From Campylobacter sp. (GTDB lineage: Bacteria; Campylobacterota; Campylobacteria; Campylobacterales; Campylobacteraceae): 48,072 bases of DNA. Both the position numbers and the translations under genes were made by a program. The stretch lies in contig JALFKC010000078.1 of NCBI GenBank assembly GCA_022775765.1, positions 1 through 48,072 of the forward strand, in the 5' to 3' direction. The notes below the pieces were generated by a model. That model searched no databases, had not been told where the DNA came from, and saw nothing but the letters and a program-made list of their open reading frames with translations. Positions 4,929-29,931 of the stretch are shown piece after piece. Each line of letters opens with the position of its first letter. Position 1 is the stretch's first letter.

Positions 4929-4983
4929 GTGGTACTAATAGCTTTATGCATTATATCTAATTTTACTTGTCGCCATTAAGTAA

Positions 4984-5485: not shown

Positions 5486-5657
5486 CTTTACCCAAAAAAT
5501 GCCTAAAATTTGCCTAAATTCGCATTTTCAGTTCTCATTTTTTACCTTAATTATTTTTCTCTCAAACTCCCACGCAATCGCACTTTTAAACACTTTTTCT
5601 CACTTTTTTATTTTTTACCTTTTGCATAACATCTATCAAATACGCTAATTTATTCAT

Positions 5658-9377: not shown

Positions 9378-10366
9378 TTTTTATTCACCACAATTTCATA
9401 AGCTTTGATATATTTTTGTGCCATTTTTTCGATGCTAAATTCTGCACTCCAATTTTGCTTTACTTTTGCGAAAATTTTAGTAAATTTTTTATGATTTTCA
9501 TAAATTTCATTTAGCTTTTCGCTTAAAATTTCTACTTTTCTATCAAAAACCAAATCGTTTCCCAAAATATCTTTATGATTTGAAACATTAGAGGCTATCA
9601 AAGTTTTTGCGTAAAAAATAGCTTCTATAAGCGAAATAGAAAGCCCTTCAGTTTCTGAAGCAATGACTTGCAAATCGCAACTATAAACATAATCCGCCAC
9701 ATTATCGACAAATCCAGCGAGATTAACTTTATCAGCGATATTTAGTTTTTGTGACAAATTTTTTAGATTTTCTTTTTCATTGCCTTCGCCAAGAATGATA
9801 AGCTCAAAATCAAAATTAACTCGTGATAATGCCTCTATTAGCAAATCCCAGCCTTTAACTGGTGCCAATCTGCCAACGCCTAGAATTGTAAATTTCTCTT
9901 TTTTTATTAATTTTGGCTCTTTTTTTATCGCACCATTTGTTATTAGGATGTTTTTTTTAGCATTCATATAATCCATCGTTTCTGGCGAAACAGCTACGCT
10001 AATATCAGCTAGTTTAAATTTAGTTTTTAGCTCCGGATTGTGGAGAGTAGCTAGAATTTTGATTTTATTTTTTAAAAATAGTTGCATATAACTCATTATT
10101 TCTAACTCTTTTGCATTGTGGCAGTGGATTATATCTGGTGCAATTTTTTCTACCAATTTTGCAGTTTTGTATAAAAAAAGCGGATTAAATCTGTTTTTAT
10201 TAAAATCAAATTGTAGAAATTTCACTCCGTCGCTTAAATATTGCGTTATATCTTTGTTTGAAAGCAAAATTACTTTGTGATTTTTACTCATTTCATTACA
10301 TAAATCAACGCAAACTTTTTCAGTTCCAGCAAATTGAGTCCAATGCAAAGTTTGCAAAATTTTCAT
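9374..10366 (-). CDS. GT4 glycosyltransferase, paralogue of its neighbour
   Basis: This 330-residue GT-B enzyme starts MKILQTLHWTQFAGTEKVCVDL. It has IAPDIIHCHNAKELEIM, then GVGRLAPVKGWDLLIEAL and ELIILGEGNEKENLK in the nucleotide-binding domain. The EX7E motif is EGLSISLIEA. It resembles the gene at 8361-9377 along its whole length, so the two probably arose by tandem duplication and now add successive sugars. The C-terminal tails (MAQKYIKAYE / VAQKYIKAYE) are nearly the same. It has no membrane segment and overlaps the genes on both sides by 4 bp. Substrate is unknown. Confidence 0.87.
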   Translation of the reverse strand: MKILQTLHWTQFAGTEKVCVDLCNEMSKNHKVILLSNKDITQYLSDGVKFLQFDFNKNRFNPLFLYKTAKLVEKIAPDIIHCHNAKELEIMSYMQLFLKNKIKILATLHNPELKTKFKLADISVAVSPETMDYMNAKKNILITNGAIKKEPKLIKKEKFTILGVGRLAPVKGWDLLIEALSRVNFDFELIILGEGNEKENLKNLSQKLNIADKVNLAGFVDNVADYVYSCDLQVIASETEGLSISLIEAIFYAKTLIASNVSNHKDILGNDLVFDRKVEILSEKLNEIYENHKKFTKIFAKVKQNWSAEFSIEKMAQKYIKAYEIVVNKK

Positions 10367-11421
10367 AAATTTTCTCCATTTTTATAGATAAATTCGCTCC
10401 ATTCATAATTTTCACTTAAATTTTCATTAAATAAAATTTCCATCATAAATTTACTCACACGCTTTGCATTTGTCATCTCGTAAGCTTTTTTTTGTCCGTT
10501 TTTAGCGATAATTTTAAATTTATCATTTGCTAAATACTCTTTTATTTTTACCGCACAATCATCGAAATTCTTAAAATAAACAATTTCATCGTTTGCTTTA
10601 AAAAGCTTATCAAAGCCCTTTATCTCAGGCGAAAAAGTGCAAGTCGCACAGCCTAAAAATTGTGCCATTCTATCACTCGCACCAAGCAATTTATTTGATT
10701 TTTCGCAATCCAATTCATCGTCGCGGTTAAAATTTATGGCGATTTTGCTCTCATTTATCGCCTTAAAAAAGTCAAATCCAAAAATCGGCTCATTCCCAAG
10801 ACTTGCGTAAATTTTATGTTTTATGCTATTTTTTTTGCAAAATTCATCTAGCAAAAGTGCGAATTTATGGCGGTTGTCTTCTTTATAATCTCTTGCAATG
10901 TAAATTATATCGTTCGACTTTTCAAGCCCCAAATCGCACTCAAAAGCTGGATCTGAAATGTTTGGAAAAAACGCAAAAGTCGCATTTTTATATTTTGTAG
11001 AAAATTCTTTTAGCCTTAGTGCATTTGCGTAAAAAAATGCGTCGATGATATTAAATTTCTCAAAAAACTCCGGCTTTTCTTCTAAATGATCGACATACCA
11101 CATTGCGATTTTGATATTTGGAAGTGCTTTTTTTATCGCTAAAAGCGTCTCATTTACGATTCTTTCGGCTTTTGTGATAAGCAAAACATCAGCGTTTAAA
11201 TTTTTGCAAATATTAATGAGTTTTTCATTCATTTTTTTAAGACCGCTATTTTTTATGCCAAATTTTCTTAAATTTCTCTCCTGATCGCGGTAGCTAAAAT
11301 CATAAACAAAATGCCCATTTTGATGAAGTCCGTGCGAAATTTTTCTATCTGGATCATAATAGCATTTAGCATCTACTTTTTCATTAAAAGTACAACAATG
11401 CACTATTCTTAATGATTTCAT
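10363..11421 (-). CDS. CgeB-type glycosyltransferase (GT1-like)
   Basis: This 352-residue protein does not show the GT4 EX7E motif in its usual setting. It has the pattern of CgeB-like glycosyltransferases: an N-terminal domain with LNADVLLITKAERI and IAMWYVDHLEEKPEFF, then NDIIYIARDYKEDNRH. The C-terminal block is ESKIAINFNRDDELDCEKSNKLLGASDRMAQFLGC with TFSPEIKGFDKLF and DEIVYFKNFDDCAVKIKEYL, the region that binds the sugar nucleotide in this group. It is cytoplasmic by appearance. The gene overlaps both neighbours by 4 bp in the glycan operon. Donor sugar is unknown; the family call rests on recalled motif patterns. Confidence 0.72.
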   Translation of the reverse strand: MKSLRIVHCCTFNEKVDAKCYYDPDRKISHGLHQNGHFVYDFSYRDQERNLRKFGIKNSGLKKMNEKLINICKNLNADVLLITKAERIVNETLLAIKKALPNIKIAMWYVDHLEEKPEFFEKFNIIDAFFYANALRLKEFSTKYKNATFAFFPNISDPAFECDLGLEKSNDIIYIARDYKEDNRHKFALLLDEFCKKNSIKHKIYASLGNEPIFGFDFFKAINESKIAINFNRDDELDCEKSNKLLGASDRMAQFLGCATCTFSPEIKGFDKLFKANDEIVYFKNFDDCAVKIKEYLANDKFKIIAKNGQKKAYEMTNAKRVSKFMMEILFNENLSENYEWSEFIYKNGENL

Positions 11422-12389
11422 AATACAATCCTTTTGTAATATTTTTTAATTTTATCGATGTAATTTTCAAAACTAAATTTTTTTATATTTTCTTTTTTTA
11501 TTTTTAAAAAACTTTGATGAAATTTTGCGTAGTTAAGATAAATTTCGCTAATTTTTTTAGATAAATCCGTGTATATAAATTTTTCGCCCAAAATTTCCAC
11601 ACTATCTCCAATATCGCCAGAAATCATCACATTAGAGTAAAAAATTCCTTCAATCAAAACAATTCCAAGACCTTCTTTTTTTGAGCTAATGACTTGCAAA
11701 TGCGAATTTGCTAAAATTTCAGCTACATTTTCCTTAAATCCAAGCAAAAAAACTCTATTTTGCAAATTTAGCGAATTTATTAAATTTTGCAGATTTTCTT
11801 TTTCATCTCCATCGCCGATAATTTGAAGTTTAAAATTAAAATTTAGTGTGGAAACCGCATTTATAAGTGCGTCAAAACCTTTAATCGCATCAAGCCTTCC
11901 GACGGCTGAAATGGTGAAAATTTCAGGCATTTTTGGCGTTAAATTTTTAGCTTTTATGCCAAAATAAATAATTTCGCTTTTGTGATTTATCGTTTTTGCG
12001 ACCGCTTTTGAAACGGCAATGACATTTTTAGTACGGTTAAAAATTTTACCTTTTCTATCGTTGTGCTTTGTGGCAACAATATGAAATTTCAAAAATTTAC
12101 TCAAAACAAAGCCCACTTGCGTAGCTTTTGCGGCGTGAGTGTGCAAAATTTCTGGCTTAAACTTACGCAAAATTTTAGCAATCTCTAAATATAAAAAAAT
12201 GTTGTATCGTTTGTCAAAACTTCGGTATTCGTGGATTTTAACAGCTTTTGAGATTTTATCTTTAAACTCGCAATTTTTTGGGACAATTAATAAAATTTCG
12301 TCCGTTTTGCAAAGTTCGTTAATCGTTTCGCTGATGATTTTTTCAACCCCACCAAACTTTGCTGAGCACGAAAAATAGGCAATTTTCAT
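11418..12389 (-). CDS. GT4 glycosyltransferase
   Basis: This 323-residue GT-B enzyme begins MKIAYFSCSAKFGGVEKIIS, the glycine loop of the acceptor domain. It has FKPEILHTHAAKATQVGFVL, then SAVGRLDAIKGFDALINAV, LQIIGDGDEKENLQ and the EX7E motif EGLGIVLIEG. It is similar in plan to, but more distant from, the two GT4 genes downstream. It follows the second deacetylase with a 4-bp overlap. There is no signal peptide or membrane segment. It probably builds the same core or O-chain as its operon partners; the sugar is unknown. Confidence 0.87.
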   Translation of the reverse strand: MKIAYFSCSAKFGGVEKIISETINELCKTDEILLIVPKNCEFKDKISKAVKIHEYRSFDKRYNIFLYLEIAKILRKFKPEILHTHAAKATQVGFVLSKFLKFHIVATKHNDRKGKIFNRTKNVIAVSKAVAKTINHKSEIIYFGIKAKNLTPKMPEIFTISAVGRLDAIKGFDALINAVSTLNFNFKLQIIGDGDEKENLQNLINSLNLQNRVFLLGFKENVAEILANSHLQVISSKKEGLGIVLIEGIFYSNVMISGDIGDSVEILGEKFIYTDLSKKISEIYLNYAKFHQSFLKIKKENIKKFSFENYIDKIKKYYKRIVL

Positions 12390-13207
12390 CGTACGCGTCC
12401 ATTTTTCATCTTTAAAATAAATGCTAGTAACCCTTGCTTACCGCTTATCATAATGCGCGGAATTTCGTTATTTTGATAAATTTCTTTTCTAAAAACATCG
12501 TTTTTGGTAGTTACACTTGCTGCGTAATTTTGCCCCGCGATTTTTAAGCTTTCATCGTCAAAATACCCAAATGGATAGGCTAATGAGTTGCATTTTATGC
12601 CAAAAATTTTTTCAATTTCAGCTTTAGAATTTATTATTTCACGCGATTTTTTACCACTACTTAAAGACGGCAAATTTGCGTGATTTAGCGTGTGTGAGCC
12701 AATCTCAATAAGCCTACTTTCAAGCATTTCGCGAATTTCTTCATTGCTTAGCATTTTTTCAGCATTTAATTCCGCACTTTTTTGTTTTAAATCTTTATCT
12801 GTCGCCCAGTCATTATTAAAGCGGTTTAAAACGATAAAAATCGTAGCCTTAAAATTGTATTTTTTTAGAATTTTAAAAGCGTTTGTGAAATTATCTTTAT
12901 ACCCATCATCAAAGGTGATGACGACCGATTTTGGCGGGATCTCTTTTAAATTTACAAGTTCATTAAGCGTAAAACTTTTAAAGTTATTTTTGCTAAGCCA
13001 CGCAATTTGTGCCTCAAAAATTCCTGGTTTTACTCTTAAGCGATTAAACTTGCTTTTATTTTTTGGCAGATGATCTGAAATCATATGATACATCAAAACA
13101 CGCGGATATTTGTAACTCACACTACTTCGCCACCACGCAAAACGGATAGAAAAGATTATAAAACCGCAAAAAATTAAAAAGCTAAAAATCCACAAAAATG
13201 CACTCAA
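12386..13207 (-). CDS. Membrane-anchored polysaccharide deacetylase (CE4), copy 2
   Basis: This 273-residue protein has an N-terminal anchor (residues 4-22) ending in IRFAWWR, then a CE4 domain: RVLMYHMISDH (36-46), TFDDGY (98-103), HTLNH (172-176) and LAYPFGYFDD (209-218). The metal-binding Asp and His residues are all present. It shares anchor, WWR motif and domain order with the deacetylase at 7579-8364, with the glycosyltransferases lying between them. Two kept copies suggest two different acetamido sugars or positions in one glycan. It overlaps the ligase-like gene upstream and the GT4 gene downstream by 4 bp each. A role on peptidoglycan cannot be excluded. Confidence 0.87.
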   Translation of the reverse strand: MSAFLWIFSFLIFCGFIIFSIRFAWWRSSVSYKYPRVLMYHMISDHLPKNKSKFNRLRVKPGIFEAQIAWLSKNNFKSFTLNELVNLKEIPPKSVVITFDDGYKDNFTNAFKILKKYNFKATIFIVLNRFNNDWATDKDLKQKSAELNAEKMLSNEEIREMLESRLIEIGSHTLNHANLPSLSSGKKSREIINSKAEIEKIFGIKCNSLAYPFGYFDDESLKIAGQNYAASVTTKNDVFRKEIYQNNEIPRIMISGKQGLLAFILKMKNGRVR

Positions 13208-14388
13208 ATTTTGCTCCGATTTTTAAAATTTTCACTATAAACGAAAAACAAAAATATCGTAATATAGCTAAAAAGCTCTTTTGAATCAAAAACACTAAAA
13301 TCAAACTGCGTAATAATCACAAAATAGGCAAGTAGCGAAAAATAGATAAAATTTTTGCTTTTAAAAATATCAAATCCAACTTTCAAAACTGCTAAAATCC
13401 ATGCACAAAGCCCAAAAATGCCAGTAAAAAGTAGAATTTCAATCGTTGAATTATGAACTCCAGTATGAATGGCGATATATTCGTTTTTTGGAAGTGCTTT
13501 CCAAACGCCAACACCGTATCCAAATAGCGGATTTTGAGATATCATAGAAAGCCCATATTTCCAAAGCTCAGCTCTATAGCTTGAATGCCCTTGAAGTAGT
13601 TGATTTAACCTGAAATGAAAGCTATCCACACACAAAAACAGAGTTATTAAAATTAGCACAAAAATTCCAAAAGCTATAAATATTTTTTTGTCAAGTTTTT
13701 TAAAATTTAATAATAAAAAAATACCAACCGCGACTGCACTTGCAACCCAGCCAGAACGCGAAAATGAAAAAATCATACAAAAGCCATAAATTGCAATCAA
13801 AATCAAAGCAAGTATGAAATTTTTACGAAACAAAAATAGCGAAAAAACCACACTCGCACTCATAATCAAGCCCATTGCATTGCGGTTATTAAGTGTGCCT
13901 TTTAAGCCAATATCGTTGCTTGCAGGGTTATTAAATAAAATATTTGGATTTAAAATACCACTAATTATCCCGCTTAACGCTAAAATCATTGTTCCAAATA
14001 AAAGCCAATAAAGCAGATTTTTTTTCTCAAAAAATCCAAGTGCATAAAAATACGCTAAAGCTATGAAAACGACTATATATCTTAGAACAAACATCGTGAT
14101 ATGGTGCCAAGATTTTTTGCCCAAAAGCTCTAAATTTAGCAAATTAGCAATCACCATACTAAAAATTATGAGAAAAACAAATGCACTAAGCAATCTCATC
14201 TGATTAAAATTTCGTGCTGTGATAGCGAAATTTTTGCTAATCAAAAGATGCGAAATAAAAAATAAAATAATCAAAATCGTTGAGATTTGATAAACTGCAT
14301 TTTTAAAAGGAATTGAAATTACCCATATAAATAGTATAAAATTAAATGCGAGTTTTATCTTGTCATATTCCTTTAGTCTTGCTAACAT
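13204..14388 (-). CDS. O-antigen ligase/polymerase family protein (WaaL-like)
   Basis: This 394-residue protein is almost wholly membrane-embedded (about 11-12 hydrophobic segments). Its large periplasmic loop reads NPLFGYGVGVWKALPKNE then HTGVHNSTIEILLFTG, with His312 in the HxxxHN-type motif of the Wzy_C/WaaL family. WaaL joins undecaprenyl-linked O-chain to lipid A-core in the periplasm. Wzy polymerases share the fold, so ligase versus polymerase is not settled here. Its setting among core glycosyltransferases, and a separate Wzy-like gene at 41064, favour ligase. It is the first gene of the long minus-strand operon. ATG at 14386-14388 follows AAGGAAAA, and a TATAAT box lies 36 bases upstream. 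Confidence 0.78.
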   Translation of the reverse strand: MLARLKEYDKIKLAFNFILFIWVISIPFKNAVYQISTILIILFFISHLLISKNFAITARNFNQMRLLSAFVFLIIFSMVIANLLNLELLGKKSWHHITMFVLRYIVVFIALAYFYALGFFEKKNLLYWLLFGTMILALSGIISGILNPNILFNNPASNDIGLKGTLNNRNAMGLIMSASVVFSLFLFRKNFILALILIAIYGFCMIFSFSRSGWVASAVAVGIFLLLNFKKLDKKIFIAFGIFVLILITLFLCVDSFHFRLNQLLQGHSSYRAELWKYGLSMISQNPLFGYGVGVWKALPKNEYIAIHTGVHNSTIEILLFTGIFGLCAWILAVLKVGFDIFKSKNFIYFSLLAYFVIITQFDFSVFDSKELFSYITIFLFFVYSENFKNRSKI

Positions 14389-17560: not shown

Positions 17561-18127
17561 TTATTTGGTAAAAAGCCCTATGCGGTTTCTATTCATCACT
17601 CTTTTTCTGTAGATATTAGAAACTTCAGTTGCGTCGCCAACTAGCAAAGCGTTAGTTGAACATATCGCTGCACACATCGGAACTTTGCCTTCAGCTATGC
17701 GGTTTTGACCATAAAGCTCTCTTTCTTCGCTAGAATTAGTCTCTTCAGGGCCACCAGCACACATTGTGCATTTATCCATCTCGCCTTTTATACTAAAAGC
17801 ACCATCCCTTGGGAATTGTGGTGCACCAAATGGACACGCATATAAGCAGTATCCACACCCAATGCAGGTTTTTTTGTCGTGAAGCACAATGCCATCTTCT
17901 CTAATATAAAAGCAATTTACAGGACAAACTTGTGCACAAGGGGCGTCGGTGCAGTGCTGACAAGCTAGAGTGCTTGAGTACTCTTTGCCTACAACGCCTT
18001 CATTGATGATGACAACTTTGCGTCTATTTATCCCAACTGGGACTTCGTGAGCTGACGAGCAAGCCACTTGACAGCCATAGCAGGCTATACATCTGTCGTT
18101 ATCTACATAAAATTTCATTCTTGCCAT
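17561..18127 (-). CDS. fdhB: Formate dehydrogenase iron-sulfur subunit FdhB
   Basis: This 188-residue protein has four Cys clusters for [4Fe-4S] centres: CIACYGCQVAC (13-23), CQHCTDAPCAQVCPVNC (56-72), CIGCGYCLYACP (88-99), and CTMC (120-123) with CAAIC (152-156). It forms the electron relay from the molybdenum/tungsten site of FdhA toward the membrane. There is no C-terminal membrane helix, so it must dock to a separate cytochrome b or other acceptor. It has no Tat signal of its own and would be exported with FdhA. ATG follows AAGGAG and lies 10 bases after the FdhA stop. The terminator comes immediately after, so no fdhC follows here. Confidence 0.93.
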   Translation of the reverse strand: MARMKFYVDNDRCIACYGCQVACSSAHEVPVGINRRKVVIINEGVVGKEYSSTLACQHCTDAPCAQVCPVNCFYIREDGIVLHDKKTCIGCGYCLYACPFGAPQFPRDGAFSIKGEMDKCTMCAGGPEETNSSEERELYGQNRIAEGKVPMCAAICSTNALLVGDATEVSNIYRKRVMNRNRIGLFTK

Positions 18128-18137
18128 AACTTACTCC

Positions 18138-21047
18138 TTATGCTTTTTCTATCTTGCAAAGTCCAGCATTGAACTCTGAAATTTGAGTATTGATATCAAA
18201 GCCATAGTTTGTAATGGTGTTTGAGCTCTCGCCTATTATATATGGTTTGGTACCCTCAGGGTATCTATCGCTTAGATCCACGCCTTGTAAAATTCCCGCA
18301 AAGTTATAAGGCATAACTATTCTATCGGGTGTGACTGATTCAGAGTAGATACATTTAACCTTGATTTTTGTCCCTTGTGGGCTGTGTATCCACATCATCT
18401 CACCATCTCTTATGCCTTTGTTTGCTGCTAATTTAGGATTGACATGAGCAAACATCTCAGGCGTAATCGCTGCAAGGTATTTGCTAGTCCTTTCTATCAT
18501 ACCAGCCCCACTTAAATTTACTAGTCTTAGTGAGCTAACCACAGTTGGGAACTCTTCACTCCAATCTTTTTCTTGTTGCTCGCTTTTAAATTTAGTAGCA
18601 ACCCTAAAGTTTCTTGCTTGATCGTCCCAAGTAGGGTATTTTTGCACTAAATCCCAGCGCGGTGAGTGGATCGGTTCTCTGTGTTTTGGAATCGGATCTG
18701 CAAATTCCCATACCTTTACTCTAGCTCTAGCATTTCCACACGGACAAACCCCAGCTTCACGGCATTTTTGTGCGATTATACCGCTGTAATCCATACTCCA
18801 ACTAGGCCCCATTTTAGCTCTTTCTTCATCGGTTAGAGTTATACCTAAAACGCTTTCAATGTTTTCTTTGGTGATTTGAGCGTGACCGCCTTTTACCTTT
18901 GAGCCAGGCAAGGTTATGCTCTCATCGGCTAGTTGGCTAACGCCGTCATGCTCTAGTCCAAAGCGGTTTCTAAAGCCCATTCCGCCTTCTGCGTAAGGCT
19001 TAGTTATATCATACAAAATCGGCGTTCCAGGGTGCTTTTCATCCCAACAAGGCCACGGAAGACCATAATATTCACCCTCAACTGGTCCAATCCCCTTTAG
19101 GGTTGCTGGATCAAAGTATTGCCAGTTTTCTTGATGTTTTTTAAGTCTTGCTGCTGTGCGACCGTTATTTCCGATACTTTGAGTATTTCTTGCGATCTCA
19201 TCAGTCGCATCATCTGGCCAAACAAAGTCATCTTTTACCTGCTTGATCTCTCCATCAACCACGCCCATTTTCATACCACGCACAAACTCATCATAAAAAC
19301 CAAATTTCTTAGCAAACATAAACATTATCTCTTGATCTTCTTTGCTTTCATAAATCGGCTTAATAACCTGAGTTCTCCACTGAGCTGAGCGGTTTGTAGC
19401 ACTAACATAGCCTGAGCTTTCAAACTGAGTGCAAGCTGGAAGTACATAAATTCCATCTTTTCTATCGCTTAAAATCGCAACTTCGTTCAAAAACGGCTCG
19501 GCTACTACAAGCATATCAAGCTTGTCTAGAGCTTCTTTGATTTTGACTTGATGAGCCATTGAAGTAATTCCTGTTCCTTGAACCCAAAGAACTCTTAAAT
19601 TTCCACTTGAAAATGTGTCTTCTTCTTTTAAAACTCCTTGCCACCATTTTGATAACGAGTAGCCCTTTTCGTTACGCCAATTTCTATCTTCTGGGTTTTT
19701 CTCATCGTAGTAAAAATACTCTTTAAAGTTTGTCCCAGCGACATCTTCACCAAGTTTTTCTCTTTTTTCTTTGGTTGAAACAGCAAATCTTTTAACAAAC
19801 GCGTCATAATCAACACCCCAACCTTTGCAGTGGTGTTTCCAAGCTGCGTCTCCTAGACCATAATAACCTGGCAGGCTATCTGCTAGGCAGTTCATATCGG
19901 TTGCACCTTGAACATTGTCGTGCCCTCTAAGAATATTACATCCGCCACCTGGTTTTCCCATATTGCCTAAAACAAGTTGTAAAATCGCTAAAATTCTAGT
20001 GTTTGAACTACCAACTGAGTGTTGAGTAATACCCAAAGCCCAGCACAAACTAGATGGTCTTGAAGTGGCAAAAAGTCTAGTAAATTCCTCCAGCTCTTCA
20101 ATCTTACATCCTGTTACATTTGCAACCTCTTCAGGTGTCCAGTGAGCAGCTTCCTTTCTTATCTCATCAACGGCGTAGCTTTGCTTTGCGATGACTTCTT
20201 TGTCTTCCCAGCCATTTTTGAAGATTAGATGAAGCATTCCATAAATAAATGCGATATCAGTTCCTGGTCTAATTCTTATATACATATCAGCTTTTGCTGC
20301 TGTTCTAGTGAAAACCGGATCTACAACAACGATTTTAGCGTTGTTTCTATCCCTTGCTTGCAGTGCGGATTTCATCGCTCCAACTGGATTTGCGACGGCT
20401 GAATTTGCACCTATGAATAAAATCACTTTTGAGTTTAACATATCTTTGCTGTGGTTTGTCATAGCACCATAACCCCAAGTATTCGCCACACCGGCGACTG
20501 TTGCACTATGTCAAATTCTAGCTACATGATCTATATTATTTGTTCCCCAAAATGCTGCAAATTTCCTAAAATAAAATGCTTGTTCGTTTGAAAATTTAGC
20601 CGAACCCAAAAACTCAACGCTATCTGGGCCGTCTTCTTTTCTAATCTCAAGCATTTTTGCTGAAATCTCATCAACTGCAGTCTCCCACGAAATTCTCTCC
20701 CACTTTCCATCTACTTTTTTGAGTGGGTATTTAAGCCTCATTTTTGACTTTGTAAGGTCGATTTGGTCTATACCCTTACAGCAGTGGCTTCCTTGAGAGA
20801 ATGGGTGATCTGTAGCTACATCTTGGCGAATCCAAGTGTTTGTAGATTCATCAACTTCGGCTAAGATTCCGCAACCTGCCGAGCAAATCGAACATATGGT
20901 CTTTTTCATCACTGTGTTTGGAAATGGATTTTTAACTTCTTCAGGGGTAGCATCTCTAAAGATTTCGCTTTCACCACCAAATAAAGCACTTGATCCAACT
21001 CCAAGAGCTGCCAGCTTTAAAAAAGAGCGTCTTGCTATATTACTCAT
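18138..21047 (-). CDS. fdhA: Selenocysteine formate dehydrogenase catalytic subunit FdhA
   Basis: The gene must be read through an in-frame TGA (20511-20513) as one protein of 969 residues. It has a Tat signal (ARRSFLKLAALGVGSSALF, residues 5-23), then a [4Fe-4S] site CSICSAGCG and SHCCKG. After HVARI comes selenocysteine 179, then HSATVAGVANTWGYG. Reading U at this place gives the active-site pattern of Sec-containing formate dehydrogenases, where U ligates Mo or W and a His follows. The rest is the molybdopterin oxidoreductase fold, ending in the dinucleotide-binding domain. It oxidises formate to CO2 in the periplasm to feed the respiratory chain. ATG follows AAGGAG. The tiny Tat gene upstream and FdhB downstream are in the same operon. 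SelA and SelB are encoded nearby. Confidence 0.95.
20483..20513 (-). promoter_or_regulatory. Sec UGA codon and SECIS hairpin in fdhA
   Basis: After the UGA (20511-20513), 13 bases lead to a stem TCGCC (20497-20493), a loop GGTGT (20492-20488) and GGCGA (20487-20483), a perfect 5-bp hairpin. The loop GGU, which SelB recognises in bacterial SECIS elements, begins 18 bases after the UGA. From memory this is the same distance as in E. coli fdhF. Confidence 0.88.
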
Positions 21048-21486: not shown

Positions 21487-22182
21487 TTAACTTTTTTCTT
21501 CAGTTTTGTCTAAGATATCATAAATTTCATCGATATTTTCCATCTTGGTTTCATAAGGTTTTTTAGCTAGACTTTGCCTTGCAATGTCTTTGAGTGGTGG
21601 CTTGCTAAGCCCATAAACTGAGCGTTCAAGCGAGATAAAATTCTCAAATAAAATTGCTAAATTCTTAAAAAATTTTGCACTTTTGTGATATTTTAAAAGA
21701 TAGATAAACTCATCAATTATTTCATTTATTATCGAAGTAAAAAGTTGTGAACTAAGTAGGGTGTATTTGGCCTCATTTTTGCTAAGCATTTTTGACATAC
21801 TTAACAACACAAAATAGATACTATCTTCGCTATCATGGCTATTTTCATTTAGTCTAAAATCTGTTTTTTTAATGATATCGGTGATAATATGTTTTGCGTG
21901 CCCTTCGTCTCTGCCTTCTGTATAAAAACTAGCCCCAAGCGGGACATTTGCAAACGAAAAATCAAAAAATACTGCATTTTGCTCACTTTTAAACTCATCG
22001 AATTTAAACTCGCTAAGCTCTTTAAATGCACTTTCATTGTCTTTTGATAGGCTGGCTGAGTACAAAAAATTTAGCTGGTCTTGCCATCTATTGAATATCT
22101 CATCATCTTCGCTAAACAAAAATGGCAATGCAAAAAATTCATAATAATAGCTTCTTATTCTTTTAATCTCTTTGTAGTCCAT
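21487..22182 (-). CDS. TorD-family chaperone for formate dehydrogenase
   Basis: This 231-residue, all-helical, cytoplasmic protein has the TorD/DmsD pattern: YYYEFFALPFLF near the N-terminus, the core segment FANVPLGASFYTEGRDEG (about 138-155 as a loop and helix), and D/E-rich helices after it. Such chaperones bind the Tat signal of a molybdoenzyme and hold it until the cofactor is inserted. Given its place, the client should be FdhA, whose Tat signal would otherwise carry it out too early. It overlaps the ferredoxin-like gene by one base (TAATG). A 232-bp gap containing the fdh promoter separates it from the small Tat gene. Confidence 0.8.
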   Translation of the reverse strand: MDYKEIKRIRSYYYEFFALPFLFSEDDEIFNRWQDQLNFLYSASLSKDNESAFKELSEFKFDEFKSEQNAVFFDFSFANVPLGASFYTEGRDEGHAKHIITDIIKKTDFRLNENSHDSEDSIYFVLLSMSKMLSKNEAKYTLLSSQLFTSIINEIIDEFIYLLKYHKSAKFFKNLAILFENFISLERSVYGLSKPPLKDIARQSLAKKPYETKMENIDEIYDILDKTEEKS

Positions 22183-23855
22183 TAGAAAATTTTCACTCCT
22201 TGTTCAAGTTGTTTTTTTATCATCAATTTTGCCTTGCAGTCGCTACAGCAATAAAGCGATTTGAGTTTATAAGGGTCATCTTTAAATTTTGGTTCCATAA
22301 AATTTGCGATTTTTTGCACGGCTTTGGTAGTTGCAAACTCTTTGCCACACTCTACGCATTTAAATAGCTCATCTTTGGCTAAGGTTTGATATTCAAAATA
22401 CTCAGGCTTTAATTCAAGCTCACCTCTGGTTAGCTTAATAGTGTCTTTTTCAGCACAGCTTACTTCACAATATCCGCAAGTTGTGCAAATTGAAGCGTTG
22501 AATTTGATAGAATTATCTTTGGTATCAGCGATTAATGCTCCGACATTGCACGCCCCAACGCAGCTCAAACAAAGCGTGCAAGAGCTCTCATTAATTTCAA
22601 CCTTGCCATATCTTATCCATTCACCACTCTTTGCGACGCCTAGATCATCACCCCCTACCAAAAATTTAACTCTCTTTGCAAAAATCTCTCTTTTTGCGAG
22701 ATTTGCTTGATTTGCTAAGCTAAATTTGCTCTCATGAATTAGTTTGGCGGTTTTGAGAGCAATTCTTAGTTCTATCTCATCTTTTGCCACCAAAATAGCG
22801 TCAACGCCAAATTTGAGATTATAAATTTGATTGATTAAATCAATGCTCTCTTTTACGCCAGCAGAGATTAAATCACTATAAAATATTATATTAGCCCCAC
22901 TCTCTTCAAGCAGGGTCAAAAGGTGGGTTTGGCTTAGAAACTTCTCACCTTCAATTGCAAACGGAAGCACATTTTTTGGCAAACTCACATCACAATCATC
23001 AAGGTCCATTATGCGTGGGGTGATGAGTGGAATTTTATTCTCATACATTTTCGCAACTTCCCAAAACGCGTCTTTTGGCATTTTGGTGTAATCAAGTGCA
23101 CCACTTGGGCAAATACTTACGCAGCCCCCACACCCCACACAGTCGATATGAGAAAAAACTAGCTCTTTTTTCTCATCATCCTTTAAAATCGCCACGGTCG
23201 GGCAGATATCTACGCATTTTGCACAGTGTTCGCTTCGTCTGTGGTGGTATTGACAGATATCAGAGTTATATGAGATAGAGTTTTTGTAGTGATAGAGTGG
23301 AAAGTGATTATTAAGATAGTCTAAAATTTCAATCGGCTCAAGCTCGCTAATTTCTAAACACCCACTCTGTCTAAGCATATATGGCTTAGCATTTTCAACC
23401 AAAAAAAAGTCGCACTCTACTTCAAAATCCTTGCCGTGTTGAAGCACATCCGCAAAAAGCTCGCCAACTTGCCCGTAGATAAAGTTTATCTCGCTGTGAG
23501 TTAGGGTTATCACGCTAAATCCACTCTCTTTTAATGTGGTGGCAAGTTCGCTTTTGTCATCATCGCTAACAAGTAAAATATTTTTACCGACCTCTTTTTC
23601 ATAATCAATATCTGTAGCACCATCAAAAGTTACCGCTCTTGCTTCGTATAAAAGGCTACTATTTTTGGCTTTTTGAATGGTGTCATCAAGACTTTTGCTT
23701 AGATAAAAATTGATCTCAGGTGCGTAGATTAAGGCTTTTTGATTTTCGTCATTGCTAACTAAAAACTCGCTACTACAGGGCTTATTTAATAGTTCAATCT
23801 CATCGCTTAAAACAACTTCATCGTCTAAGTTTTGTATGAATACAAATTCTTTCAT
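22182..23855 (-). CDS. Multi-cluster 4Fe-4S ferredoxin-like protein of the fdh locus
   Basis: This 557-residue protein has an N-terminal half with few motifs, then CQYHHRRSEHCAKCVDICP (about 200-218) and CVGCGGCVSICP (about 239-250). Near the end come CTLCLSCVGACN and CTTCGYCEVSCAE, i.e. at least four [4Fe-4S] sites. The tail has CVECGKE and CCSDCKAKL, which look like a zinc ribbon. There is no signal peptide, so it is cytoplasmic. Always next to the TorD-like gene in this kind of locus, it may move electrons or sulfur for FdhA maturation; this is inference. It is the first gene of the minus-strand group, with AGGAAAG before ATG 23853-23855. Confidence 0.75.
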   Translation of the reverse strand: MKEFVFIQNLDDEVVLSDEIELLNKPCSSEFLVSNDENQKALIYAPEINFYLSKSLDDTIQKAKNSSLLYEARAVTFDGATDIDYEKEVGKNILLVSDDDKSELATTLKESGFSVITLTHSEINFIYGQVGELFADVLQHGKDFEVECDFFLVENAKPYMLRQSGCLEISELEPIEILDYLNNHFPLYHYKNSISYNSDICQYHHRRSEHCAKCVDICPTVAILKDDEKKELVFSHIDCVGCGGCVSICPSGALDYTKMPKDAFWEVAKMYENKIPLITPRIMDLDDCDVSLPKNVLPFAIEGEKFLSQTHLLTLLEESGANIIFYSDLISAGVKESIDLINQIYNLKFGVDAILVAKDEIELRIALKTAKLIHESKFSLANQANLAKREIFAKRVKFLVGGDDLGVAKSGEWIRYGKVEINESSCTLCLSCVGACNVGALIADTKDNSIKFNASICTTCGYCEVSCAEKDTIKLTRGELELKPEYFEYQTLAKDELFKCVECGKEFATTKAVQKIANFMEPKFKDDPYKLKSLYCCSDCKAKLMIKKQLEQGVKIF

Positions 23856-23946
23856 TAACTTTCCTAATTTATAAATTTATTATTAGCGTTAAATTTTATT
23901 ATGAAAATGGTTAATACTTACTGAAACATCCTACTAAATTTTTAGC

Positions 23947-23952
23947 TATAAT
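23947..23952 (+). promoter_or_regulatory. -10 box of the kinase-selAB operon
   Basis: TATAAT within TAGCTATAATATTAC, 66 bases before the kinase start, in the 163-bp gap shared with the divergent ferredoxin-like gene. An AGGAAAG ribosome site precedes ATG 24019. Confidence 0.6.
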
Positions 23953-24018
23953 ATTACACATAAAAGCATAAAATTTTTACCAATTGCTTTTGCAAGACTA
24001 TTTAGGAAAGAATTTATA

Positions 24019-25494
24019 ATGAAAAACCGTGAAAATGCCACCTTAAACTATACAAAAAGCATATATGCTATATTTATTATCACTTTTGTAATGAGTGCGG
24101 TTGTTGCGGTGATATTTGTACTCTATATCACCAATCTTAAAAAGTCACTTGATGAAATTTACTCTCACTATGTTTTGCCAACTAACAAAATAGTAGAAAT
24201 TTCACAGTTTTATAGTGCAAATTTATTCTACGATATCAATCAAAAAAACTCATCTGAGATTAAAAATTTGCTAGATAGCATTCAGACAAAATGGGACGAA
24301 TATAGATCTTTGAGCAGATATTATGGTAAAAGTGAGTTTGAAGATCTACAAAAAATTGAACTAGAAAAAGCAATTGAGGCAAATTTGCAAAATATCTTAA
24401 TTCTTGCAAATGATACTGGCATAGTCAGCTTGCAAGATATTAAAAATCAAAAAGAGCAAATTTACCTTGCACTTCAGGTAAGTGCTGAGGATTTTAACAA
24501 GCTATTTTCATATTTTTTGGATGAGTTAAACAAGCAAAAATCAAGCACGGATGAGTTTTATAAGAAGTGGTTTTATAGGCTTTTTGGGCTGATATTTATT
24601 ATTTTTATGCTTTGTGCTAGCACGGTTGTTTTTTTGGGATTAAAATCAAAGCAGATTAATAAAATGCTCGATTCGATGGTAAAGACAAAGACCTATGAAC
24701 TTCAAAATCTAAACAAAGAGCTTGAAGCGAAATTAAAACGCGAACTTGAAAACTCACGCAAAAAAGATCAAGCCATACTTATGAACTCTAAAATGGCCGC
24801 CCTTGGTGAAATGCTTAGAAATGTCTCTCACCAGTGGCGTCAGCCATTAAATGCGATAATTATGATAATTCAAAGCTTTGAAACCAAGCTTGAAAAAGGC
24901 AAACTCACTCAAGAATTTGTCTCATCTCAGGTCAAAGAAGCACTAATTTTAGCTAATGGAATGTCAAAAACTTTAGATGAATTTGGAAGTTTTTATAGTC
25001 CAAACAAACAAAAAAGGAGCTTTGAACTCGATGAGCTTATCCAAAATAGCCTAACTCTAAGCCGTTATATCCTAGATAAAAACAATATCAAGCTGACATA
25101 TGAAAAGCAAGATGGTATAAGACTATTTACTTATAAAAATGAACTTTTGCAGGTGTTGATAAATATCATTAACAACGCCAAAGACGCACTTAATGATAAA
25201 TTTTATACAAAATATATTATAATTAAAACTTATATAAAAGATAACTTCGCTATAATTGATATTGCCGATAATGGCGGAGGGATAAAAGATGGTGTCATTG
25301 AGAAAATTTTTGAACCATATTTTACGACTAAACACCAGAGTATGGGAAGTGGAATTGGACTTTATATGAGTAAAAATTTGATAGAAAAACATATCGGCGG
25401 CGAACTTTTAGTAACAAATATAACAAAAGAATTTGGACCTAGAGAGTATAGGGGGGCAAATTTTATAATCAAAATTCCTATGATGGAGGATTAG
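24019..25494 (+). CDS. Membrane sensor histidine kinase
   Basis: This 491-residue protein has two membrane segments (about 15-38 and 188-208) around a helical periplasmic sensing region of about 150 residues. A coiled linker (215-255) follows. The transmitter has an H-box NVSHQWRQPLN with H271, an N-box NIINNAKDAL (N385/N386), a G1 box DNGGG (417-421), and an F/G2 stretch FEPYFTTKHQSMGSGIGL. All residues needed for autophosphorylation are present. The stop is one base before the response regulator start, so they are partners. The stimulus is unknown. Placement beside formate dehydrogenase and selAB suggests formate, selenium or respiratory state. Confidence 0.9.
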   Translation: MKNRENATLNYTKSIYAIFIITFVMSAVVAVIFVLYITNLKKSLDEIYSHYVLPTNKIVEISQFYSANLFYDINQKNSSEIKNLLDSIQTKWDEYRSLSRYYGKSEFEDLQKIELEKAIEANLQNILILANDTGIVSLQDIKNQKEQIYLALQVSAEDFNKLFSYFLDELNKQKSSTDEFYKKWFYRLFGLIFIIFMLCASTVVFLGLKSKQINKMLDSMVKTKTYELQNLNKELEAKLKRELENSRKKDQAILMNSKMAALGEMLRNVSHQWRQPLNAIIMIIQSFETKLEKGKLTQEFVSSQVKEALILANGMSKTLDEFGSFYSPNKQKRSFELDELIQNSLTLSRYILDKNNIKLTYEKQDGIRLFTYKNELLQVLINIINNAKDALNDKFYTKYIIIKTYIKDNFAIIDIADNGGGIKDGVIEKIFEPYFTTKHQSMGSGIGLYMSKNLIEKHIGGELLVTNITKEFGPREYRGANFIIKIPMMED

Positions 25495-25495
25495 A

Positions 25496-26164
25496 ATGAA
25501 TGAAAGAAACTTAGACGCACTTTCTAAAATCAGCGTTTTGTATTTAGAAGACGAGGAGACGCTTTTAAAACAGACTACGAATGTTTTGGAAGATTTTGTC
25601 AAAACTATTTATCCTTGCAAGGATATTAACTCGGCAACTGAAGCGATACTAAACAAAAAAGTAGATGTCATTATCAGCGATATTTTGCTTGAAAATGGGC
25701 TTGGCATCGAGTTTTTAAAAAAAATCAGAACCGAGGGCTATCAAACACCATTTATCTTCACAACTGCTTACACAGATACCAAATATATGCTTGAAGCGAT
25801 CAAATTTAGTGCAAACGGCTACATTATCAAGCCTATAAATGTCAAAGACCTTTTGAATATGATATATGATGTGATTATCCCTATTTTAAAAGAGGACGAA
25901 TACAAAAAAAACGAGTATATCATCAAAACAGTTGCCGCGGTTACTGATACAAAGGCGGTTGAAGTGATAAAATTTATCGTTAATAATCTAAATGAAGATA
26001 TGATTTTTAACTATCCGCATTCGGTGATTATGGAGAATATCGATGTTAGCAAGCCAACAGTCATCAAGCTTTTTAAACAGTTAGCGGATTTGGAGATTTT
26101 GGTTAAACTTCAAAACTCAAAGTATGAATTTAGACCACAAAATCTTAAAAATTTAGAAATTTGA
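25496..26164 (+). CDS. Response regulator with HTH output domain
   Basis: This 222-residue protein has an N-terminal receiver: acidic pair E18/D19 (LYLEDEE), phosphoacceptor D62 (ISDILLENG), T89/T90 and K112 (IIKPIN). After a linker, residues 140-222 are helical and contain IDVSKPTVIKLFKQLADLEILVKL. This is a winged-helix-like DNA-binding output not of the OmpR type, closer to the response regulators often found in Campylobacterota. ATG follows TGGAGGA and lies one base after the kinase stop. The likely targets are its own operon and the divergent fdh genes; this is inferred only from position. Confidence 0.88.
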   Translation: MNERNLDALSKISVLYLEDEETLLKQTTNVLEDFVKTIYPCKDINSATEAILNKKVDVIISDILLENGLGIEFLKKIRTEGYQTPFIFTTAYTDTKYMLEAIKFSANGYIIKPINVKDLLNMIYDVIIPILKEDEYKKNEYIIKTVAAVTDTKAVEVIKFIVNNLNEDMIFNYPHSVIMENIDVSKPTVIKLFKQLADLEILVKLQNSKYEFRPQNLKNLEI

Positions 26165-26174
26165 TAGGAATTTG

Positions 26175-27491
26175 ATGAAAATACAGCTTCCTCAAATCGA
26201 TAAGTTAGCAAATCTAAAAGAGTTTGAAGGTGCTTTTAGACCAAAGATAATCGCTATTGCAAAAAGTGTGCTTGAGTGCGAGAGACAAAAAGCACTAAGC
26301 AGACAAAGCTACAAAAGCTTTGATGAGATAGTTAGCGAGATTGCGTCTTGCTACGATGAATTTGAAGCTCTTAGCCTAAGGCCAATTATTAACGCAACAG
26401 GTGTAGTTCTTCACACAAATTTAGGTAGAAGTGCTATAAGTAGCGAAGTTTTAAAAAGAGCCCTAAAGGCTTCAAAAGGCTACTCAAATTTAGAATACGA
26501 CACAAATTTAGGCAAAAGAGCATGGCGATACTCTTACACAAGCGAGCTTTTTAATCTTTTGTGTGGAAGCGAAGAAGCTCTAATCGTAAATAACAACGCT
26601 AGTGCAGTTTTTTTGGTGCTTAATACCTTTGCTAAGGCTAGGCAAACCATCGTAAGTAGGGGAGAGCTTGTAGAGATTGGCGGTGGATTTAGAATCCCTG
26701 AGGTGATGAGTAGCTCTCTTACAAACTTAATTGAAGTTGGCACCACAAACAAAACCAAACTCAAAGATTACGAAGAAGCAATCAATGAAAACACCGCTAT
26801 GCTAATGAAAGTCCATAAGTCAAATTTTGCCATCCTAGGCTTTAGCGATGAGGTTAGTATAAGCAAGATTTCAAATTTAAGTAGTAAATTTGGGTTAATT
26901 AGCTACTACGATATGGGAAGTACGTATATAAATGAGCTTCCTTTTAATCTTGGCAAAGATGAGTCACCACTTGGTGAGATTTTAAAAACAGGCGTGGATC
27001 TAGTGAGTTTTAGTGGCGATAAGCTCTTTGGAAGCGTTCAGTGTGGCATAATTCTAGGCAAAAAATCTCTCATAGCTAAGCTTAAACAAAACCAACTTCT
27101 AAGAATGCTAAGAGTTGATAAAATCACCCTTTCTATCTTAAATGAAACCATCAAAGCTTATCTAAATAAAGAGTTTGATTTAATCACTACAACTCATCAA
27201 ATTTACAAAACCACTGATGAGCTAAAAAGCCTTGCAACTAGCGTAAAAAATAGTATAATCTTGCCTTGCGAAGTAGTTCAAACTTCAACTTTTATAGGCG
27301 GGGGCAGTATGCCTTGCAAAAGCTATCCAAGCGTGGCTTTGGCCTTTGATGGTAACACGCAAGAGCTAGAGAGTAAATTTAGAAAATCAGGCGTCATCGG
27401 CAGGATAGAAAATGGCAAATTTTTGCTTGATTTTAGGACTATTTTGGATGATGAGATTGATAGTTTGATAAAAATTTGCAATGAAATTTGA
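26175..27491 (+). CDS. selA: L-seryl-tRNA(Sec) selenium transferase SelA
   Basis: This 438-residue PLP enzyme converts seryl-tRNA(Sec) to selenocysteyl-tRNA(Sec) using selenophosphate. It shows the SelA pattern: LRPIINATGVVLHTNLGRS, YSNLEYD, VNNNASAVFL, SRGELVEIGGGFRIPEV, and the PLP-binding lysine in VSFSGDKLFGS (K283). I use ATG 26175 (AGGAA in front); a TTG one codon upstream is also open. It follows the response regulator by 10 bases and is followed by SelB after 14, so all are probably one transcript. Its product is needed for the UGA in fdhA about 6 kb away. Confidence 0.96.
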   Translation: MKIQLPQIDKLANLKEFEGAFRPKIIAIAKSVLECERQKALSRQSYKSFDEIVSEIASCYDEFEALSLRPIINATGVVLHTNLGRSAISSEVLKRALKASKGYSNLEYDTNLGKRAWRYSYTSELFNLLCGSEEALIVNNNASAVFLVLNTFAKARQTIVSRGELVEIGGGFRIPEVMSSSLTNLIEVGTTNKTKLKDYEEAINENTAMLMKVHKSNFAILGFSDEVSISKISNLSSKFGLISYYDMGSTYINELPFNLGKDESPLGEILKTGVDLVSFSGDKLFGSVQCGIILGKKSLIAKLKQNQLLRMLRVDKITLSILNETIKAYLNKEFDLITTTHQIYKTTDELKSLATSVKNSIILPCEVVQTSTFIGGGSMPCKSYPSVALAFDGNTQELESKFRKSGVIGRIENGKFLLDFRTILDDEIDSLIKICNEI

Positions 27492-27505
27492 TAAGGAAGT
27501 GAAAT

Positions 27506-29329
27506 TTGAATAGTATCATCATAGGCACGGCTGGTCATATTGACCACGGCAAAACTTCGCTAATCAAGGCGTTAAACGGCGTTGATGGCGATAGAATGCA
27601 AAGTGAAAAAGAGCGTGGAATCACAATTGATCTTAGCTTTTCAAATTTAAAAAGTGGCGAAAATAATATCGCATTCATCGATGTCCCGGGGCACGAAAAT
27701 TTAGTCAAAACTATGATAAGTGGGGCGTATAGTTTTGATGCGTGTATGCTTGTAGTAGCAAGTGATGACTCACTTATGCCCCAAACCAAAGAGCATATTG
27801 AAATCCTTTGGCTACTTGGTGTAAAATCCATCATACTTTGCATAACAAAGTGCGATCTTACAACCAAAGATGAGCAGATTAAAGCTGATCTTGAAACGAG
27901 AGACTATATCGCTAAATTTGATGGACTAGAGGTTTTGCAGACATTTTTTGTAAGCACCAAAGATGAGTTAAGCCTAAATGAGCTAAAATCCTATCTTTTT
28001 ACTATCAAGCCAAAAGCTAGAAGCTCAAACTCGCTTGTTAGATACTATATTGATAGGGTTTTTAGCCTAAAGGGGATTGGAATTGTAGTGACTGGAAGTT
28101 TGGTTGATGGATTTATCAAAACAGGCGAAAAGCTATTTTGCCTAAATAATTCAAAAATATATAATGTTAAATCCTTGCAAGTGCACGATAGTTTTGTAAG
28201 CTTAGCAGACTTTCCAAACAGAGTGGCGATAAACTTAAGCCCTGCAAATGCCAGCGAGCTAAAAAAGGGCTATATTTTATCCAAAAAAGGTTTTTTTAGG
28301 GGATTTGGCCAGGTTGATTGCGTATTTGTAGGAAAAATCGAGCACAATGAAAGCGTTATGTTTTGTGTAGGAAGCGACGCAGTGAGTGCTAAAGCTTTGG
28401 TATTAAGCAAAAAAGATGACAAATATTTTGTGAGTTTTAAGTTTCAAAAAGAGATGTTTTTAAAATTTAATGAGCCTTTTGTAGTGTTAGCAAATTCACG
28501 CGTAATTGGTGGTGGCAAGGTGCTAAATCCTATTAGCGAACCGCTTAAAAAGCCACTTAAGATAGAGCTTTTAAACGCTCTAAACTCAAAAAATTTCATC
28601 AAAGCATTTGAGATTTTAGCTATCACTCACAAGCATGGTTTTGGACTGATATCATCATTTCAACGCTTCGCGGTGGAACACGCTGACGCACTAAATATCG
28701 CTAAAAATTTAAGTGATAAATTCTACATAGATGAGACAAATTTATGCGTTTATAGCGTGGAAGCACTCAAAGATATAGAGAATTTTGTCAAATTTATGGT
28801 AGCAAAAAACCCATACGCTATTTTTAGCCCAAGTAGCATTGCACTTCGCCTAGCGTGGGCGAGCGAGAATTTGATAGGTTTGGCACTTCAAAATTTAGCA
28901 AAAAACTCTCTAATAGAAAAAAATGGAAGTGTCTATATCAAAAAAGGCGTCGATATAAACGCACTTGAAAAAAGCGTAAGCGAAAAGATCTACTCAATTA
29001 TCAAAAATGATGGCATAACCCCACAAGCCCCATATAATATCTACGATAGTCTTGATATCGATAGAGTTAGTGGGGATAACGCACTAAAGGGACTAACTGC
29101 TTCCAAAAAGGTCGTCCGCCTAGCACACAATCTCTTTATAAGTAGTGAGAGTTTGGCTGAAATTCTCAAAATTATGAGAGAAATCATCGCAAAAAATGGT
29201 AAAATAAATGTGGGAATTTTAAAAGATAGTCTAGGTATCAGTAGGAAATTCGCCATCGCATTTTTGGAGTATTTGGATGGTTTTGATGATATCAAAAAGA
29301 TAGAAAATGATAGGTTTTTGATAAAATGA
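27506..29329 (+). CDS. selB: Selenocysteine-specific elongation factor SelB
   Basis: This 607-residue GTPase delivers Sec-tRNA to UGA codons marked by a SECIS. The EF-Tu-like G domain has GTAGHIDHGKT (7-17), EKERGITID (35-43), DVPGH (59-63) and TKCD (114-117). Beta-barrel domains follow. The C-terminal third, of winged-helix repeats (for example IFSPSSIALRLAWASENLI and GKINVGILKDSLGISRKFAIAFLEYLD), binds the SECIS hairpin. The start is TTG 27506 with AAGGAAG in front; no ATG fits, because the G1 motif begins seven residues later. It ends in a 4-bp overlap with the lipoprotein gene. The tRNA(Sec) gene is not in this window. Confidence 0.96.
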   Translation: MNSIIIGTAGHIDHGKTSLIKALNGVDGDRMQSEKERGITIDLSFSNLKSGENNIAFIDVPGHENLVKTMISGAYSFDACMLVVASDDSLMPQTKEHIEILWLLGVKSIILCITKCDLTTKDEQIKADLETRDYIAKFDGLEVLQTFFVSTKDELSLNELKSYLFTIKPKARSSNSLVRYYIDRVFSLKGIGIVVTGSLVDGFIKTGEKLFCLNNSKIYNVKSLQVHDSFVSLADFPNRVAINLSPANASELKKGYILSKKGFFRGFGQVDCVFVGKIEHNESVMFCVGSDAVSAKALVLSKKDDKYFVSFKFQKEMFLKFNEPFVVLANSRVIGGGKVLNPISEPLKKPLKIELLNALNSKNFIKAFEILAITHKHGFGLISSFQRFAVEHADALNIAKNLSDKFYIDETNLCVYSVEALKDIENFVKFMVAKNPYAIFSPSSIALRLAWASENLIGLALQNLAKNSLIEKNGSVYIKKGVDINALEKSVSEKIYSIIKNDGITPQAPYNIYDSLDIDRVSGDNALKGLTASKKVVRLAHNLFISSESLAEILKIMREIIAKNGKINVGILKDSLGISRKFAIAFLEYLDGFDDIKKIENDRFLIK

Positions 29330-29931
29330 AAAGATATTTTTGGATAGTTTTGCTGATTTTTGGGGTTGTTGGATTTAGTGGTTGTGCGAATAAAAATGTG
29401 AATTTAAATGAAGGCATAGTTAGAACTAGTGAGCCACTTTTTATTGGGACTAAGCCAAAAGATAACAAAGTTTATGTGAAATTTAGCGACGCTACTGGCC
29501 TTGATTGGGGGCAGGTGAGTGCGAGCGAAAAATTAAGTGATGATTTGAGACAAAAACTACTACTTAATGGCTACATTTTAACCGATGAAAAACAAAACGC
29601 AAGTGTGATTATAAATGGTGGAATTAACTATTTTAGACGAACTATTATCAAAGATAGAGATCCATTTTTGGAGTTTGGAATGGGTAGAAGATGGTACTAC
29701 GCTGGTGTTGGATATTATGATAATTTTTATGATATGCGGATGAATAGCTATATCTACGACGCACAAATTTCACTTAGCATTGGAATTAATGATGGCAAAA
29801 ATATCAAAAATTACACTACAAATTTAAACTATCAAAGTAGTAAAAATATCAATTCACTCTCTACTATGCTAAAAATTTTCTCAAATAAAATCTCAAATCA
29901 GATAATTTATTACTTAAAAAATGCAGATTAA
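29326..29931 (+). CDS. Lipoprotein, weakly TraT-like, last gene of the selAB operon
   Basis: This 201-residue protein has a signal peptide ending in the lipobox GFSGC (residues 16-20), so it should be lipidated and sent to the envelope. The mature part has VYVKFSDATGLDW, a helical stretch DDLRQKLLLNGYILTDEKQNASVIING, and an aromatic region FGMGRRWYYAGVGYYDNFYD. The plan (small domain, then 'GYI..' and an apolar repeat) recalls TraT-type outer-membrane lipoproteins, but only weakly. ATGA overlaps the SelB stop, so it is translated with selB although nothing ties it to selenium. Function unknown. Confidence 0.7.
   Translation: MKRYFWIVLLIFGVVGFSGCANKNVNLNEGIVRTSEPLFIGTKPKDNKVYVKFSDATGLDWGQVSASEKLSDDLRQKLLLNGYILTDEKQNASVIINGGINYFRRTIIKDRDPFLEFGMGRRWYYAGVGYYDNFYDMRMNSYIYDAQISLSIGINDGKNIKNYTTNLNYQSSKNINSLSTMLKIFSNKISNQIIYYLKNAD

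Follow-up and report, generated by a model that had tools for sequence, protein, structure and literature searches.

A two-component pair between selA and a formate dehydrogenase operon in Campylobacter and its candidate palindromic site in Campylobacterota

Does a two-component system that is encoded between a formate dehydrogenase (FDH) operon and the selenocysteine genes selA and selB control both of its neighbors? The question is raised by a stretch of 48,072 nucleotides from Campylobacter sp. (assembly GCA_022775765.1, contig JALFKC010000078.1; "the window" denotes this whole stretch), in which genes for a sensor histidine kinase, a response regulator, SelA, SelB and a lipoprotein are arranged head to tail on the plus strand, while an operon with the order polyferredoxin-TorD-fdhA(TGA)-fdhB diverges from the kinase gene across 163 bp. 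A first-pass annotation, made from the sequence alone, had proposed that selenium insertion and formate oxidation are jointly controlled here by a periplasmic signal. Open reading frame coordinates confirm the gene order and the gaps on which that proposal was built (1, 10, 14 and -4 bases), the second gap being 7 if an in-frame TTG is taken as the selA start. We propose that the pair represents a derived form of a module that would govern a formate/selenium regulon at the family level via a palindromic site, and that the window copy acts on a second FDH operon of the same genome and on selAB. To this explanation as a whole we assign a probability of about 0.62.

The module and its link to formate dehydrogenase

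Regulator orthologs occur in five of the 14 genomes of the genus and in further genera of the family (g7-g12), where selA is present in 120 of 153 genomes. In all ten Campylobacteraceae genomes holding both genes the regulator gene lies directly upstream of selA, and this adjacency is therefore more than chance. A scan of named genomes yielded 80 loci from Campylobacter, Sulfurospirillum, Arcobacteraceae, Sulfurimonas-like and other lineages. Outside the Campylobacteraceae, a gene for a periplasmic binding protein (PBP) of the Peripla_BP_6 family directly precedes the kinase gene in 59 of 60 testable loci and a polyferredoxin-FDH operon diverges from the module in 50 of 56; selA is the next gene after the regulator gene in 29 of 62 loci and lies further downstream in 12 more. 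TGA was found in every linked fdhA gene with a readable codon (46/46). The conservation of order in other Campylobacterota, suggested as a check by the first-pass annotation, is thus borne out in the form of a link between the pair and selenocysteine FDH across lineages.

Of 399 genomes in the order, 89 have a strong regulator ortholog, and 86 of these contain the polyferredoxin gene as well. Since selA adjacency is limited to 29 of 62 loci, the pair, as far as gene content and order tell, tracks selenocysteine FDH more closely than selA. Formate and selenocysteine are inseparable as the tracked trait because TGA is present in each linked fdhA gene that was read; the persistence of the fdh link where selA is not adjacent favors fdh. 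Genus g9 keeps the pair beside unrelated genes and without selA, and a gene for a TorD/FDH chaperone was not found in the two g9 members searched.

Both proteins of the window pair appear equipped for signaling. That the kinase is a membrane sensor, as had been stated from the sequence, agrees with two candidate transmembrane helices (residues ~11-42 and ~183-211) enclosing a helical periplasmic domain, and with intact kinase motifs (H271, N382, DNGGG, GSGIGL). Pfam assigns HisKA and HATPase domains, with HATPase_c over the cut-off and a 4HB-like periplasmic region just below it; neither a receiver nor an HPt domain was detected by Pfam in the 491 residues, and the kinase is not a hybrid. In the regulator, the receiver residues D57 and K112 are intact and Response_reg scores over the Pfam cut-off. 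Both reading frames are open. The C-terminal part of the regulator matches Pfam RepL just below the cut-off, and Pfam did not find the Trans_reg_C winged helix by which OmpR-family regulators are recognized. An AlphaFold model shows a winged-helix topology at middling confidence (mean predicted local distance difference test score 74), a fold search with the output domain gave weak matches to MarR, CRP and CodY (E 0.02 or worse), and a PDB sequence search with the same domain returned no useful match. The recognition helix, SKPTVIKLFKQL, is identical in the window, in the Sulfurospirillum orthologs and in g9, and the window regulator has the pattern SKPTxIKxF that marks the recognition helix of the module.

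A palindrome at formate dehydrogenase and selenium genes

Of 64 intergenic regions between fdh and the PBP gene, 53 contain GGTAAA-N6-TTTACC exactly or with a single mismatch, where Markov shuffles predict 0.4, and the spacer measures 6 in all but two regions. When these regions are aligned on the palindrome, a reversed -10 element (ATTnTA) and an 11-bp direct repeat, TTAAA-N5-CTTAA, appear at a fixed distance. The palindrome is also present upstream of selD in all 19 Arcobacteraceae-like loci (p 0.005-0.03 each). A search of the 399 genomes with the composite pattern GGTMAA-N6-TTTACY-N1-3-ATTNTA gave 71 sites in 56 genomes, compared with 6 hits for the reversed control. The sites are confined largely to genomes with the regulator, 52 of 89 as against 4 of 310 others (Fisher 5e-36, calculated over genomes that are related), and 41 of the 71 lie in the fdh/PBP region, with 11 more no further than 25 kb from the regulator gene.

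Further palindromes precede additional FDH operons in some genomes, the YedE/FdhT gene (NF033796) in two genomes and, in one genome, a gene for a putative selenate-binding protein (TIGR04553, below the cut-off). Genome G275 encodes three FDH operons in one locus and has an exact palindrome at each of them. In g9, two palindromes 90-92 bp apart are located upstream of hydA, the gene for a [NiFe]-hydrogenase small subunit, in three genomes, and a single one in a fourth. Conversely, no palindrome was detected at fdh in the regulator-less genomes G325 (Arcobacteraceae) and G166 or in regulator-less Campylobacter. Paralogous PBP-kinase-regulator modules have a different recognition helix and no palindrome.

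These observations lead us to infer that the regulator binds the palindrome and that the set of palindromes delimits a formate/selenium regulon. The regulator is favored as the binder because the palindrome is gone at fdh where the regulator has been lost, because each FDH operon of G275 has an exact copy, because g9, an apparently fdh-less genus, retains the pair together with palindromes upstream of hydA, and because the recognition helix is constant while paralogs that differ in it lack the palindrome. The alternative that some other regulator found in the same genomes binds the palindrome, the pair being a neighbor with other targets, could draw on the fact that most regulator-bearing Campylobacter genomes have no palindrome, and on the direct repeat, which could be the site of the regulator instead. 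We consider this alternative quite unlikely: it is at odds with the behavior of the fdh-less clade, of the Arcobacteraceae that lost the regulator and of the paralogous modules. The direct repeat itself is a less favored candidate for the regulator site; it is kept at fdh, is weaker at selD and is not significant in the window.

It could also be argued that the pair, fdh and sel are three unrelated units brought together by history and that the regulator controls neither fdh nor sel. Indeed, regulator-less Campylobacter, the C. jejuni-like clade included, commonly keep polyferredoxin and selA divergent, ~150-190 bp apart, so that sel/fdh adjacency, on the evidence of gene order, is independent of the pair; moreover, one clade has the pair without fdh or sel. 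However, mere adjacency accounts neither for the co-occurrence of regulator and polyferredoxin nor for a palindrome common to fdh, selD and fdhT, and is very improbable.

Several palindromes were set aside. Those of Arcobacteraceae that lie over the selA start codon (GGTAAAAATG...) were not counted, given that ribosome site plus coding sequence alone could yield them, and chance was assumed for those that fall within coding regions (L210, L226, L337 and several in Campylobacter). Four Sulfurospirillum loci (L318, L319, L327, L330) have a palindrome ~145-160 bp upstream of genes for a double-cubane-cluster reductase and its activator, and in three genomes (L321, L322, L326) one is situated 51-60 bp ahead of a DUF3144 gene, which hints at a formate or selenium role for that family. 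The paralogous modules L162, L163, L164 and L165 do not adjoin fdh and differ in the recognition helix. By eye, an apparent selenocysteine tRNA gene is seen antisense between selD and selA at Arcobacteraceae loci (L087, L133, L139 and others); the selD codon at such loci is TGA in most and cysteine in L110, L114, L153 and L160. At L294, the Arcobacteraceae locus of G325, the pair is lost and selD-selA-selB is still divergent from the FDH operon.

The module comprises a LivK-type PBP, a membrane kinase whose periplasmic domain is helical, and a response regulator whose output domain is a predicted winged helix. In the full system, a periplasmic ligand held by the PBP would alter kinase activity; the regulator, once phosphorylated, would bind GGTAAA-N6-TTTACC, and FDH, selenium supply or uptake, selD and selenocysteine synthesis (selA) would be set together, up or down. 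The genes selAB may be reached by read-through from the module in Campylobacter and Sulfurospirillum and by a palindrome of their own in Arcobacteraceae. A bolder formulation is that Campylobacterota possess a dedicated formate-selenium regulon with a three-protein sensor whose PBP reads a formate- or selenium-related ligand, which would limit selenium uptake and the synthesis of selenophosphate and selenocysteine to conditions in which the selenoenzyme is of use, that its regulator was re-aimed at a hydrogenase in an insect-gut lineage, and that the window species, devoid of the PBP, uses it on the second FDH operon. We put this forward tentatively, as a possibility short of even odds.

The window copy and the second formate dehydrogenase operon

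In the window, as in G066 and G072, the PBP gene upstream of the kinase is absent, while it is present in G067 and G077, i.e., in two of the four other genus members; a search for a PBP copy elsewhere in the genome found none but had no positive control. Campylobacter kinases without PBP share an identity of 0.25 in the periplasmic domain and 0.59 in the kinase core (ratio 0.43), whereas kinases with PBP have ratios of 0.70-0.81, a small comparison that involves three sequences without and, in the genus, two with PBP. The simplest history that these sequences suggest leads from the full module through loss of the PBP to loss of the pair. This raises a serious rival to our proposal: the window pair may be a decaying remnant on its way to the loss that is complete in most Campylobacter, with selAB being read from the kinase promoter without any signal. 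The stepwise series seen in Campylobacteraceae (from the full module to one without PBP and on to the absence of the pair), the low identity ratio and the want of a cis-element in the window all fit such decay. On the other hand, neither the catalytic motifs nor the recognition helix is disrupted, both frames are open and one palindrome persists at the second FDH operon, which makes decay, in our view, somewhat unlikely.

This second operon resides on another contig (C47) and has the order torD2, TGA-fdhA2, fdhB, a cytochrome subunit gene, fdhD, a ModE-like regulator gene and TGA-selD. A YedF-like gene also lies in this selenium/FDH region. The genome thus has at least three selenoprotein genes and a single selA, the one in the window. 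The facing fdhA had been described as the only selenoprotein gene seen, which holds for the examined 17-36 kb of the window but not for the genome. Across the 1.8 Mb of this genome, GGTAAA-N6-TTTACY occurs just once, at C47:9892-9909, 14 bp upstream of torD2, and with up to two mismatches the palindrome is found at the second FDH operon in six of ten regulator-bearing genomes and in none of eight regulator-less ones. By our own estimate, the probability that a chance site comes to lie no more than 150 bp from any of ~4 relevant promoters is roughly 5e-4. According to our proposal, the PBP was lost and the sensor domain diverged in the window organism, and its regulator would control the second FDH operon in trans and set the level of selAB via the transcript of its own operon.

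A number of observations weigh against this proposal. Our statistics treat related genomes as independent. The palindrome is placed near the transcription start at fdh and further upstream at selD and fdhT; given this difference in position, control may be by activation or by repression. The reversed control pattern also gives 1-2 hits in the genome of the window, so that the single site there could be due to chance. In the regulator-bearing genomes G066, G067, G072 and G077 no palindrome was found at fdh1, nor was any found at fdh2 in G066, G067 and G077, the three that have it. Fdh2 of S. multivorans has been described as constitutive (PMC4585668). Finally, the divergent region of the window (23856-24018) has no significant match to the palindrome or the 11-bp direct repeat; its best match to the palindrome has three mismatches, and none with one mismatch or fewer was found anywhere in the window.

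This last result bears on the reading closest to the first-pass annotation, namely that the pair acts on the facing fdh and on selAB through an operator diverged past recognition. The head-to-head genes, the intervening 163 bp and a gene order kept in five genomes of the genus speak for it. Yet with an unchanged recognition helix a wholly different operator would be unexpected, and we regard this reading as unlikely. Joint control of selenium and formate genes by a periplasmic signal fits the family, with its PBP, its linkage and its palindrome, and finds no support at the facing operon of the window, where PBP and cis-elements are missing and the sensor has diverged. Co-transcription of the pair with selAB, judged by spacing alone, is likely. 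A terminator after the pair, named earlier as a sign to the contrary, did not turn up: the terminator scan found no terminator-like site on the plus strand between 24019 and 29931. The lipoprotein gene, previously counted in the operon, is not part of the conserved unit. It follows selB in the window genome only, and four relatives have it beyond fdhB on the opposite strand; this peculiar position suggests that it probably stands outside the functional unit. G066 and G072 have two copies of it. Coordinates are given in Table 1.

Table 1 Features of the window, the second FDH operon of the same genome and hydA palindromes of g9 metagenome-assembled genomes
Feature	Contig or locus	Position	Strand	Basis or remark
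Membrane sensor histidine kinase, 491 aa	window	24019..25494	+	Open reading frame, Pfam, motifs; ortholog of module kinase
Response regulator, receiver and predicted C-terminal winged helix (RepL/MarR-like)	window	25496..26164	+	Open reading frame, Pfam, motifs, model
selA, L-seryl-tRNA(Sec) selenium transferase	window	26175..27491	+	ATG start; TTG at 26172 possible; equivalog match
selB, selenocysteine-specific elongation factor	window	27506..29329	+	TTG start; equivalog match
Lipoprotein	window	29326..29931	+	Open reading frame; 4-base overlap with selB
Divergent intergenic region, 163 bp	window	23856..24018	.	Between kinase and polyferredoxin
Polyferredoxin, 557 aa, first gene of facing operon	window	22182..23855	-	Open reading frame, Pfam
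TorD-like FDH chaperone	window	21487..22182	-	Open reading frame, Pfam
fdhA, selenocysteine FDH catalytic subunit	window	18138..21047	-	In-frame TGA 20511-20513
fdhB, iron-sulfur subunit	window	17561..18127	-	Open reading frame, comparison with relatives
Second FDH operon	C47 (L227)	344-13327		Divergent from moaE-moeA; contains fdhA2, selD
hydA palindromes, g9 (Campylobacteraceae)	L312	1501/1593
hydA palindromes, g9 (Campylobacteraceae)	L313	1501/1591
hydA palindromes, g9 (Campylobacteraceae)	L333	5389/5481
hydA palindrome, g9 (Campylobacteraceae)	L315	1501

Comparison with known systems

The pair appears to belong to a signaling system that is widespread among the relatives of Campylobacter and apparently undescribed. 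In agreement with the first-pass annotation, which had flagged an undescribed regulatory unit, no description of the pair or the palindrome was found in the literature searched, where most subscription journals are missing. In a review of how respiration is regulated in Campylobacterota, no transcriptional regulator is named for FDH or selenocysteine synthesis (PMC6682613). The present analysis provides candidates for both the sensor and the regulator, along with a precisely defined site of 18 bp and the promoters that it would serve. If our proposal is true, the selenium machinery of these bacteria is regulated jointly with its client enzyme and is not housekeeping, and the Campylobacter series, taken with the apparent shift of the palindrome to a hydrogenase, would clearly exemplify how a signaling system is dismantled and re-aimed.

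The TorT-TorS-TorR system of trimethylamine N-oxide respiration in E. coli likewise has a PBP that works with a membrane kinase, and the operon under its control encodes a molybdoenzyme. TorS belongs to the hybrid phosphorelay kinases, and TorT is a binding protein of another type. In contrast, the kinase described here is not a hybrid, the PBP belongs to Peripla_BP_6, the output domain is not of the OmpR type, the predicted targets are a selenoenzyme and the selenium machinery that serves it, and the window copy has no PBP; TorT bound to TorS has been described (PMC3795677). In tetrachloroethene respiration of Sulfurospirillum, likewise within Campylobacterota, a respiratory operon is under the control of the two-component system PceS-PceP. 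PceP belongs to the OmpR family and has CTATW-N17-CTATW as its binding site, with seven transmembrane helices in PceS (PMC7755780), whereas our pair has a RepL-like output domain, two helices and a palindromic candidate site; regulator family and site rule out identity with PceSP. BumS-BumR is likewise a two-component pair in Campylobacter (C. jejuni). BumS has been described as cytoplasmic and as lacking the residues for autophosphorylation (PMC11796366); identity with BumSR is ruled out, as the kinase reported here is membrane-bound with intact motifs. In C. jejuni, the FdhTU proteins connect FDH with the acquisition or use of selenium (cited in review PMC6682613). They are accessory proteins rather than a sensor, and it is the fdhT (YedE) gene itself that has the palindrome in two relatives.

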